Below, in pieces: positions 5,837-15,772 of a DNA stretch of 64,000 nt. The notes under the pieces were generated by a model that was not told the origin of the DNA, did no database searches, and was given only the letters and a program-made list of their open reading frames with translations. Each line of letters begins with the position of its first letter. The stretch's first letter is position 1. The position numbers and the translations under genes were made by a program. This stretch comes from Alkalibacter rhizosphaerae (GTDB lineage Bacteria > Bacillota > Clostridia > Eubacteriales > Alkalibacteraceae): NCBI RefSeq assembly GCF_017352215.1, contig NZ_CP071444.1, positions 1,550,001 to 1,614,000 on the forward strand, read 5' to 3'.

Positions 5837-7450
<1,614 letters not shown>

Positions 7451-7458
7451 AAATAGTA

Positions 7459-7493
7459 AAAAAACTGCCGGATGCAAGATACGGCAGTTTTTT
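7459..7493 (+). terminator. Intrinsic terminator after pyrG
   Basis: AAAAAACTGCCG at 7459-7470 pairs with CGGCAGTTTTTT at 7482-7493 around an 11-base loop. The right arm supplies the T tract. It begins 8 bases after the pyrG stop. Confidence 0.9.
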
Positions 7494-7494
7494 A

Positions 7495-7518
7495 TGTTGA
7501 TAAATATATTTATCAACA
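7495..7518. repeat. 24-bp perfect AT-rich palindrome
   Basis: The two 12-base halves (7495-7506 and 7507-7518) are exact reverse complements. Each arm contains TTATCAACA, one mismatch from the DnaA box TTATCCACA. It sits at the left edge of the DnaA-box cluster, just past the pyrG terminator. It could be an unwinding element, a DnaA site pair or an operator. Confidence 0.7.
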
Positions 7519-7522
7519 AGAG

Positions 7523-7669
7523 TTATCCACAAACTCGTGTTGACATGTGGATAATGTGTATAACTTGCCAACAGGGGGGTCCAAGACCAAAATGTCGTAT
7601 AGAACAGATTTTCGGGCACAATTGTTATACACATGAAAGAAATAAAGCTTGTACACAGCTTGTGGATAA
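7523..7669. promoter_or_regulatory. DnaA-box cluster between pyrG and rho
   Basis: Five sites match TTWTNCACA exactly within 147 bases. TTATCCACA is at 7523-7531 (plus), 7546-7554 (minus) and 7661-7669 (minus). TTATACACA is at 7555-7563 (minus) and 7625-7633 (plus). Two further TTATCAACA sites sit in the adjacent palindrome. The density is far above chance. The cluster may titrate DnaA, regulate nearby genes or, less likely without dnaA alongside, act as an origin. Nothing coding is visible between 7451 and 7878. Confidence 0.75.
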
Positions 7670-7695
7670 CAAATTTCCGGATCCCAAGAATCGTG

Positions 7696-7725
7696 TTGAC
7701 AGCGTTTTCACCCTTGATGTACTAT
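7696..7725 (+). promoter_or_regulatory. Promoter for rho
   Basis: TTGACA at 7696-7701 and TACTAT at 7720-7725 with an 18-base spacer; an overlapping TATTAT at 7723 is an alternative -10. It lies 27 bases past the last DnaA box and gives a leader of roughly 145 bases before the rho start. Confidence 0.6.
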
Positions 7726-7730
7726 TATAG

Positions 7731-7878: not shown

Positions 7879-9471
7879 TTGAGTACAGATGAATACAAGG
7901 CCCTTACCGTACAAGAGTTGCGGACCAAGGCAAAAGAAGCAGGACACAAGAACGTGACCAGACTGAAAAAAGACGAATTGATCCAACTGCTGAGCCAGGA
8001 AGAAAAGAAGGGAAGCTCCGTGGAGGAAGGCAATGGCGGACGCTACGCCCGACTCAAAGACCCAGTGGATGCTGCCGTGGACATGAAGGGGACCCTTCAG
8101 ATCCTGCCGGAAGGTTTCGGTTTTTTGAAGAATGCCCAAATGAAATCTCCCGAGGAGTACGTTTACGTCTCCGCTTCCCAGATCCAAAAGTTCAAGCTCC
8201 AGTCGGGAGACGAGATCCAGGGAAAAGTCCGGGCGCCCCGTGACGGAGAAAAATACTATGCCATGCTCTTTGTGGAAGAGGTCAACGGGAAAAGCACCAA
8301 GGAGATCATGAAGGAAGAAGAAAACCTCATGAGCAACCCGGACAAGAAGGACATGAGCCGTTATGGGAAATCCCAGACGGGGATCCTGGAAGTCATGAGC
8401 GACGGGTTTGGATTTTTGCGGACCAACAACTACCTGTCCGGAGAAAACGACATCTACGTATCCCCCTCCCAGATCCGCCGCTTTAAACTGCGTACGGGAG
8501 ACAAGATCACCGGAAAGATCCGGACCCCCAACGAAGGGGAAAAATTCGACGCTCTTTTATATGTAGAAACGGTCAACGGAGACATTCCGGAGAAAGTGGT
8601 CAACCGGCCCGTTTTCGAACGGCTCACCCCCATTTTTCCCAATGAACGGTTGAAGCTGGAAACGGGAAGAAACCCCGTATCCACCCGGATCATGGATCTC
8701 TTTGCCCCGGTGGGCAAGGGACAGCGGGGCATGATCGCCGCCGCTCCCAAGGCTGGGAAAACCATCCTCCTTAAAGAGATCGCCAATGCCGTGGAAAAAA
8801 ACAACCCGGAAGTGGAACTGATCATGCTCCTGATCGACGAGCGACCGGAGGAAGTAACAGACATCCAGCGAAGCGTCCATGCAGACGTGGTCTATTCCAC
8901 CTTCGACCAGTTGCCCTCCAACCACATCAAGGTGGCGGAGATCGTGCTGGAGCGGGGGAAACGGCTGGTGGAGCAGGGCAAGGACGTGGTGATCCTCATG
9001 GACAGCATCACCCGTTTCGCCAGGGCCAACAACCTGGTGGTGCCTCCTTCCGGAAGGACCCTCTCCGGTGGACTGGACCCGGAAGCATTGTATCTTCCCA
9101 AGAAATTCTTTGGGGCCGCCCGAAACATCGAAGAAGGGGGAAGCCTTACCATTCTGGCCACCGCCCTCATCGATACAGGCAGCCGGATGGACGACATGGT
9201 CTTTGAAGAATTCAAGGGAACGGGAAACATGGAACTGCACCTGGACCGGAGCCTGACGGAGAAGCGGATCTTTCCCGCCATGGACATCTACAAGTCGGGG
9301 ACCCGCCGGGAAGACCAGCTTCTCACGGAGGAAGAGATGCGCTTTGTCATCGAAGTGCGGCGGGCCTTTTCCAACCATTCTTCTGCGGACATCGCGGAGC
9401 GGCTCATCGATGCCATGGGCAAAACGGACAGCAATCGGGAGTTTATTCGCAGCTTTATCAAGAAACGTTGA
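7879..9471 (+). CDS. rho: Transcription termination factor Rho with duplicated RNA-binding domain
   Basis: ATP-driven hexameric RNA helicase that ends transcription. The start is TTG at 7879, five bases after AGGAGGTG; the frame is open further upstream but without a ribosome site. The 530 residues are a Rho_N helical domain (about 5-42), a cold-shock-type RNA-binding domain (about 71-137), a second copy (about 168-234) and the ATPase. Both copies carry the GFGFL, YVS-SQI, GD-I-GK-R-P and VNG motifs of Rho. The ATPase has Walker A APKAGKT (289-295), [21 protein letters not shown] and the GGLDPEALY loop. Ordinary Rho has one such RNA-binding domain, which explains the extra length. Confidence 0.95.
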
Positions 9472-13688: not shown

Positions 13689-13719
13689 AAAAGGCCGACT
13701 ATAAAATGTCGGCCTTTTT
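13689..13719. terminator. Bidirectional terminator
   Basis: AAAAGGCCGAC at 13689-13699 pairs with GTCGGCCTTTTT at 13708-13719 around an 8-base loop. It lies between the convergent 3D-domain and dnaI genes and overlaps the dnaI stop codon, with T tracts usable on both strands. Confidence 0.85.
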
Positions 13720-14679
13720 CATTCGGATGTCTTCTCCGAAGAATTCGTAAAATTGGAAGTTCCCGATGATCCTGGATGCCAGCCGGGCGGAATAGCGCCC
13801 CTCCAGCTTGTTCAATGGAAGGTTGGTGGAAATGATCATCTTTTTTTGTTCCTTCAACCGGCGGTTGATCAGGTTGAACAGCTCGTTGTTGGCAAATTCC
13901 GTCAGGGTCTCCGTTCCCAGATCGTCGATGATCAGCAGATCGCACTGGTAGAGGAACTGGAAGGGCTGCTGGGCGAGACGGTCGTCGTTCTGCTGAAACT
14001 TGCTTTTTCGGATGATGTCCAGAAGATCGGAAGCCGTCTGATAGATCACCAGCTTGCCGGCATCCAGAAGCTCCTTGGCAATGCAGTGGGAAAGGAAAGT
14101 CTTTCCCAGACCCGGATCCCCGTAGAAATACAAATTCTTTGTTTCATTGTTGAAATTCGCGGCATACTGGACGCTGGAGAGAAGGATCCGCTCCATCTGC
14201 TCCCTGGGGCTGTTGGGATAGGGTCCCTTTTCACGGGAATAGTAGTCCAGGCGAAAGGTGTCGAAGTTTTCCCGATTCAAAATATTTTTCAGATTGGACT
14301 GGTCGTAGAATTTTTCGATAAGCACTTTTTGAAAACAGACGCAGCTCTTTCCGTCCACCACTCCTTCATCCTGGCAGATGGGACAATGGGGCTGGTATTC
14401 CAGGACGGATTCCTCGTAACCCATGGAAGCCAGCAGGTCGGAGCGGTCCTGACGAAGGGTCTCCATTTCCTGTCGGAAGGCCTCCAGCTTTTTTGGATCG
14501 TCGGAAGCCACGGAAGCCATGGCCAGCTGCAGTCCCAGACGGCCAAGGCCGTCGGAGATCTTTTCCAGCTGGGGATGGGACTGGTAGAGTTCTGCCAGCT
14601 GCTGCTGGTGATGCTGCTTTCGCTGTTGGATCTTTTCGTTGTATGCTTGCAGTGTTTCATAGTAGATGGCATCTTTCAA
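13699..14679 (-). CDS. dnaI: Helicase loader, DnaI/DnaC-type AAA+ ATPase
   Basis: Loads the replicative helicase during initiation or restart. The 326-residue protein has a helical N-terminal part and a likely zinc-binding stretch, CPICQDEGVVDGKSCVC, near residue 100. The AAA+ domain follows, with Walker A GDPGLGKT, Walker B LLIIDDLGTE, sensor STN and an arginine-rich SARLASRI motif. The start is TTG at 14679, overlapping the stop of the upstream dnaD-like gene as TTGA, with GGGGTGA upstream. Gene pairing and overlap support a primosome operon. Confidence 0.9.
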   Translation of the reverse strand: MKDAIYYETLQAYNEKIQQRKQHHQQQLAELYQSHPQLEKISDGLGRLGLQLAMASVASDDPKKLEAFRQEMETLRQDRSDLLASMGYEESVLEYQPHCPICQDEGVVDGKSCVCFQKVLIEKFYDQSNLKNILNRENFDTFRLDYYSREKGPYPNSPREQMERILLSSVQYAANFNNETKNLYFYGDPGLGKTFLSHCIAKELLDAGKLVIYQTASDLLDIIRKSKFQQNDDRLAQQPFQFLYQCDLLIIDDLGTETLTEFANNELFNLINRRLKEQKKMIISTNLPLNKLEGRYSARLASRIIGNFQFYEFFGEDIRMKKADIL

Positions 14680-15641
14680 CGCGGTTCACCCCACATTTTT
14701 TCTCGCAATTTTTTCTGGATCAGATCGTAGTCGTATTTGGACGGTTCAGAGTCTTTTGACGGGGACTTGCCGCCGGTTGCAGGCCCTTTCTCATCCAGGG
14801 TGTCTTCCGGCCGGGTGAAGCCTTTTTCCTTCCAGGAAGTCAACACGGAATTCAGATAGCGGAAGTTGGGTTTGTGGAGGCCCGTCATTCGTCGGCATCC
14901 CTCAAAGATCATTTCCAATGAAAATCCGTATTCGTCCAGCCACTTGTCCATGAATTCGATCTCCGCCTTGGAAGGTTGCCGGTTCATGCCCAGGTAGTTC
15001 ATGATCTGGTAGTATTGGGTCCACCGTACGTTGTTGGACTCGATGTAGCGCTTGGCGTCTTCGTAGGTGAAGATGCCGTTGTCGTACCAGGTGGTGGCCA
15101 CCCGGTTCATGTAGTTGATGTCTTTTTTATCTTTTTCCAGGCAGTACTCCACCAGAAGGGTGACGGCCTGGGAGCTGAGCTGGAATTCTTCCATCCAGCT
15201 GCCAATGGTCTGGAGTTCCTTGACGCTCAAGGGGCGGGCAAACATGTACTCGATGGCCTTGTGCATCTGCTGGATCTCGTTTTCGTCTGTTTTCTTTTTG
15301 GCGGAGGGCATGGAAACGGATCGTCCTTCCAGCATAAGGGAAGCGATGTTGAAGTAGCGAATGCTGGAGTGGCCTCCTTCCCGCTCTTCCACCAGGAGGA
15401 TCCCTTCTTTTTCCCAGAACTTCCACGCTTTGTCCACATCGCTTTCCAACAGGTTCAGGGATTTGGCGATGACGGTGTTGCTGATGGCGGCTAGATTGCT
15501 GGATTGGCAGTACTTCAAGCCCAGCAGATAGACCTTGACGAAGTCGCCGGGAGCCTTGGGCATGTAATGGTTGATAAAAATATTTTCCACCAGGGTGACG
15601 GATAAGTCATCGTTGGATTGGATCAGTTCAAATTGGTTCAA
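14676..15641 (-). CDS. DnaD-domain replication initiation/restart protein
   Basis: A roughly 321-residue protein carrying the DnaD/DnaB-type C-terminal domain. Signatures are VENIFINHYMPKAPGDFVKVYLLGL near the N-terminus, then winged-helix sequence, and two DnaD-like repeats with WMEEF, YIESNNVRWTQYYQIMNYLG and YLNSVLTSW patterns. The start is uncertain. TTG at 15641 has AGAAGGTG six bases upstream, whereas the in-frame ATG at 15677 has no ribosome site. The frame stays open much further upstream, but that part overlaps the divergent M23 gene and is spurious. It is coupled to the helicase loader. Confidence 0.85.
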   Translation of the reverse strand: MNQFELIQSNDDLSVTLVENIFINHYMPKAPGDFVKVYLLGLKYCQSSNLAAISNTVIAKSLNLLESDVDKAWKFWEKEGILLVEEREGGHSSIRYFNIASLMLEGRSVSMPSAKKKTDENEIQQMHKAIEYMFARPLSVKELQTIGSWMEEFQLSSQAVTLLVEYCLEKDKKDINYMNRVATTWYDNGIFTYEDAKRYIESNNVRWTQYYQIMNYLGMNRQPSKAEIEFMDKWLDEYGFSLEMIFEGCRRMTGLHKPNFRYLNSVLTSWKEKGFTRPEDTLDEKGPATGGKSPSKDSEPSKYDYDLIQKKLREKMWGEPR

Positions 15642-15755
15642 TATGGGCACCTTCTTTAATGAATTGGTACTATCCATTATAGCATAAATCGAACCTGCAA
15701 ATAGGGGGAGTGCAATTTTGATTGCAGAAAAGAAAAGGGTGTGGTAGCATCTAAT

Positions 15756-15772
15756 TGTAAACAAATTGTAAA
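15756..15772 (+). promoter_or_regulatory. Second WalR-type box, upstream of the M23 peptidase
   Basis: TGTAAA-N5-TGTAAA at 15756-15772 is an exact match to the WalR consensus. It ends only 13 bases before the start codon, next to the ribosome site, so it lies where a repressor or a promoter-proximal site would be. I found no convincing promoter downstream of it. Confidence 0.45.

Follow-up and report, generated by a model that had tools for sequence, protein, structure and literature searches.

A conserved DnaA-box cluster between pyrG and rho, outside oriC, in the Alkalibacter family: a putative site of DnaA sequestration

What might a dense group of DnaA boxes be doing between pyrG and rho? 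The question arises from a 64-kb window (C1:1550001-1614000; unprefixed positions below are those of this whole analysed stretch) of a genome of the genus Alkalibacter that consists of one contig of 2,449,552 bases (2.45 Mb). An earlier note on this DNA had described five TTATNCACA boxes at 7523-7669, three of them TTATCCACA and two TTATACACA, lying next to a palindrome and away from dnaA and dnaN, and had proposed either a cluster of the Bacillus or the E. coli datA/DARS type outside oriC or an origin in a rearranged chromosome. All five boxes are found at these positions, with this composition and with mixed strands (+, -, -, +, -).

The cluster occupies the gap between pyrG, encoding CTP synthase (5840..7450, +), and rho, encoding the transcription termination factor from a TTG start (7879..9471, +). 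Its upstream limit is the pyrG intrinsic terminator, read from the sequence as AAAAACTGCCG ... CGGCAGTTTTTT (7460..7493, +), and its downstream limit is the rho promoter, TTGACA-18-TACTAT (7696..7725, +). The 24-bp palindrome (7495..7518) is indeed present beside the five boxes but is not a separate element: once one mismatch is permitted, it resolves into two inverted TTATCAACA boxes (7495-7503, -; 7510-7518, +) with a 6-bp spacer, so the cluster is larger than first described. To the right of this pair, an exact TTATCCACA box (7523..7531, +) precedes an abutting tandem pair on the minus strand, composed of TTATCCACA (7546..7554) and an exact TTATACACA (7555..7563). Additionally, an exact TTATACACA box (7625..7633, +), a weak box TTGTACACA with two mismatches relative to TTATCCACA (7649..7657, +), and a last TTATCCACA box (TTGTGGATAA; 7661..7669, -) extend the array toward rho. 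Together, the 175 bp from 7495 to 7669 carry seven DnaA boxes and the weak TTGTACACA.

Consensus boxes are clustered here above chance, as they are in a DnaA-box cluster of the B. subtilis type. When the pyrG-rho gap is shuffled 5000 times with its dinucleotides preserved, the TTATNCACA count averages 0.03 and peaks at 2, never reaching five, and the rest of the 64-kb window contains just two TTWTNCACA matches. Genome-wide, TTATMCACA occurs 45 times versus 28 for the reversed control, and the pyrG-rho cluster is the only place in the whole genome where five TTATMCACA sites fall within 150 bp.

The cluster is retained in relatives. The family set comprises six genomes, namely the window genome, Alkalibacter mobilis, a same-genus Eubacteriaceae MAG (UBA12179), a sister-genus MAG, Alkalibaculum sporogenes and an A. 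bacchi MAG. In all six, pyrG immediately precedes rho, and between the two genes there are 3-5 exact TTATNCACA boxes together with near matches; absence from close relatives had been set beforehand as a refuting outcome, and retention is a supporting rather than a strictly defining feature of a B. subtilis-type cluster. A DNA-level search for the gap in 40 relatives returned few matches because the spacer diverges, while a protein-anchored search by Rho succeeded. In the alignment of the six sequences, box columns average 79% pairwise identity versus 44% for other columns. The abutting minus-strand pair TGTGGANAA-TGTGGATAAC is recognisable in every genome, its first member being a TGTTGAT variant in two of them and single positions differing elsewhere, and a further box aligns about 23 bp ahead of it. 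The final TTGTGGATAA box ahead of the rho promoter is common to all six and nearly invariant. The left-edge inverted pair with its 6-bp spacer is seen in each of the three genomes of Alkalibacter and also, though its right half is weaker there, in the sister-genus MAG, the left-edge alignment being uncertain for the two Alkalibaculum sequences. A perfect palindrome at this pair occurs only in the window genome; the congeners carry the non-palindromic pairs TGTGGATAA-AAATGG-TTATACACA and TGTTGATAA-ATATAG-TTTTCCACA.

These comparisons bear on the idea that the boxes arose by chance, or as an ancestral AT-rich spacer slowly drifted, and that the palindrome is an unrelated transcription-factor site. 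DnaA boxes are short, and palindromes often mark dimeric regulators. However, observed TTATNCACA counts exceed all 5000 shuffles in each of the six family genomes, the boxes persist though sequence and orientation change, and in the two congeners in which the palindrome is broken its halves remain DnaA-box-like at the same 6-bp spacing, leaving chance or drift a very improbable explanation. The palindrome as an independent regulator site is likewise disfavoured, since congeners lose it yet retain both boxes.

Outside the family, the gap, or the 700 bp upstream of rho, contains no exact box at any of 75 other named rho loci, even though pyrG precedes rho at 17 of them (mostly Clostridium); the sampled Bacillus rho loci lack the cluster. 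Among 24 relatives in the same order with no pyrG match adjoining rho, one locus has two exact boxes, another has one, and the remainder have none. As far as sampled (six genomes), and judged by sequence, the pyrG-rho cluster is family-specific.

A chromosomal replication origin, whether main, second or relocated, might also be suspected here: the DnaA boxes are dense, their surroundings are AT-rich, and 4-7 kb downstream of rho lie genes encoding a DnaC/DnaI-like ATPase and a DnaD/DnaB_2 protein. The location of oriC decides the matter. A full-length dnaA lies at 1,391,672 (+) and is followed by dnaN and recF, with rnpA, yidC and jag preceding it on the other strand (names assigned from reading the translations); both dnaA and dnaN thus lie outside the window and 166 kb from the cluster, in agreement with the earlier note. 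This oriC is an ordinary, dnaA-linked one, with box clusters and DnaA trios flanking dnaA. GC skew, taken from twenty spaced 10-kb samples together with the window and other stretches, stays negative between 140 kb and dnaA; from 1.46 Mb it is positive up to the contig end and on to about 78 kb. The sign therefore changes at dnaA (about 1.39 Mb), whereas the cluster has positive skew to its left and to its right, and so it is not an origin. DnaA trios are absent from 7490-7730 and present in the dnaA-dnaN gap, and no unwinding element accompanies the cluster. The proposal of an origin in a rearranged chromosome consequently falls, a second or relocated origin at this place being ruled out by the skew and the missing trios, and an origin of any kind here retains practically no probability. 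What stands of the earlier interpretation is the Bacillus-type cluster outside oriC, through conservation in 6/6 genomes, box architecture and an ordinary oriC elsewhere.

Within the dnaA-dnaN gap, a DnaA-trio tract, CTACTACTACTATTACTA, follows two overlapping boxes at L018:5126-5143 (C1 about 1393126) and is likely the unwinding site of the real origin. The DnaC/DnaI-like helicase loader ATPase and DnaD/DnaB_2 primosome protein genes downstream of rho (13699-15770) lie on the strand opposite rho, and the loader ATPase gene stays near rho in both congeners.

The cluster resembles several known arrangements of DnaA boxes to different degrees. B. subtilis clusters outside oriC (ywlC, ywcI, yydA, gcp/ydiF, yqeG/sda and others) likewise contain several TTATNCACA boxes in intergenic positions, some near promoters, and the Alkalibacter host also belongs to the Bacillota and has a dnaA-linked bipartite box arrangement at oriC. 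In contrast, pyrG-rho is not one of the strongest DnaA-binding regions of B. subtilis (PMC4447404). The oriC box regions of relatives share the box types TTATCAACA and TTATCCACA with the cluster, and the dnaA-upstream boxes of an order relative show 78% identity to 7504-7563, but the pyrG-rho cluster lacks dnaA linkage, DnaA trios and a skew switch.

A second cluster in the same genome strengthens the link with B. subtilis. It comprises three TTATCCACA boxes and further near boxes, all on one strand (C1:1893790-1893945; L019:3791-3946), and is placed where tsaD (gcp) and an ABC-F ATPase gene converge. The convergent gcp/ydiF gap is strongly bound by DnaA in B. subtilis (PMC4447404), and the second cluster occupies the syntenic place. 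Clusters 3' of tsaD are present in 5/6 Alkalibacter family genomes and in 5/5 sampled Bacillaceae, as well as in three genomes of one clostridial family (f2), two of another (f3), Syntrophomonas and, more weakly, Thermoanaerobacterium; none was found in the sampled Clostridium genomes or in the family that includes Eubacterium callanderi. This distribution supports the use of Bacillus-like DBCs by Alkalibacter-family genomes, and suggests that one or more of the DBCs of Bacillus are not peculiar to it, being far older or more widespread.

Collectively, the segment 7495-7669 is probably a true DnaA-box cluster (DBC) distant from oriC that works as the B. subtilis ones do, with a putative role in DnaA sequestration and possibly also in rho regulation. 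In B. subtilis, where YabA is a main regulator of DnaA, initiation is documented to be controlled by clusters of DnaA boxes outside oriC. As reviewed in PMC5295017 and PMC13220808, removal of six DBCs from B. subtilis causes early initiation, which is partly relieved when a single DBC is put back. For the Alkalibacter cluster, we infer that the seven consensus or near-consensus boxes would be bound cooperatively by DnaA, the abutting tandem pair and the inverted pair serving as organising units of the complex. The genome's DnaA is intact and retains its C-terminal DNA-binding domain (Bac_DnaA_C). At 166 kb from oriC, the cluster would be copied soon after initiation, and the duplicated cluster would then take DnaA out of the free pool, thereby damping re-initiation. 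In Alkalibaculum sporogenes, the rho locus and dnaA share one contig, about 67 kb apart and identically oriented; the rho locus is thus close to oriC in both genomes where this is visible, the window genome being the other of only two such. YabA was not detected in the Alkalibacter genome, while the control search was positive in B. subtilis. The cluster is of a known kind in a new place and lineage, no report of DnaA-box clusters outside oriC in Clostridia having been found in the literature searched. Its fixed place across several genera, in a genome without detected YabA, makes it a good system in which to test the titration idea cleanly.

Titration as the main selective reason must be weighed against a role in transcription, which fits equally well with the closeness of the cluster to the rho promoter in each of the six genomes. 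Under this alternative, the main effect of bound DnaA (or DnaA-ATP) would be to activate or repress transcription from the rho promoter, so that Rho level is coupled to replication status, and titration would be a by-product. The cluster has kept its place ahead of rho throughout the family members seen. It always follows the end of pyrG and precedes a rho promoter that is strong and conserved (TTGACA, 18-bp spacer, TATNAT-like second hexamer; 6/6 genomes), and the near-invariance of its last box, upstream of the -35 element, points the same way. However, the distance from that box to the -35 ranges from roughly 15 to 80 bp depending on species, without fixed phasing, no box overlaps the core rho promoter in the window genome, and the tsaD/ABC-F cluster of the same genome sits in a convergent gap with no obvious promoter. 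A primarily transcriptional function is therefore possible but clearly the less probable account. Control of rho is nevertheless the strongest rival or companion to sequestration: position suggests it, and the variable -35 distance does not help. With the rho promoter following immediately after the cluster, bound DnaA may modulate rho transcription, and the stronger proposal, that the replication initiator directly controls rho in the Alkalibacter family through a dedicated upstream DnaA complex, is put forward tentatively and is rather unlikely. If true, it would link the replication cycle with genome-wide transcription termination, and hence with R-loop load and conflicts between replication and transcription. 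No paper linking DnaA with rho was found in the literature searched.

The remaining alternative is that the cluster alters the nucleotide state of DnaA, as E. coli datA does through ATP hydrolysis or DARS through ADP release. The intergenic position near oriC, the multiple boxes in both orientations and their partly conserved spacing are compatible with this. datA is a single chromosomal site outside oriC with about five boxes of high affinity, and DARS1 and DARS2 are likewise small DnaA box groups outside oriC. In contrast, datA spans about 1 kb and is IHF-dependent (PMC5295017), and the pyrG-rho cluster, at 175 bp, is not known to depend on IHF and yielded no partner site; DARS reactivates DnaA in an IHF/Fis-dependent manner. 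Moreover, B. subtilis is reported to be without datA, DARS1, DARS2 and IHF (PMC13220808). An effect on nucleotide state is accordingly improbable, and membership of the datA/DARS class, defined by E. coli loci dependent on IHF/Fis, is not supported.

Two further observations concern neighbouring sequences. A third, small box cluster occurs in two family members (L212:3335-3427 in G001:C65; L213:3559-3618 in G004:C240), upstream of a tRNA methyltransferase-like (yabB-like) gene; no counterpart stood out in the box list of the window genome. In G001 it lies between yaaT-like and yabB-like genes, where Bacillus presumably carries yabA. The rho leaders of the relatives are A/T-rich and not C-rich; that of the window genome (7732-7868) is 36% C and 9% G, the strongest C-over-G stretch of such length on the window's plus strand, and its resemblance to a Rho loading site suggests autoregulation of rho by attenuation.
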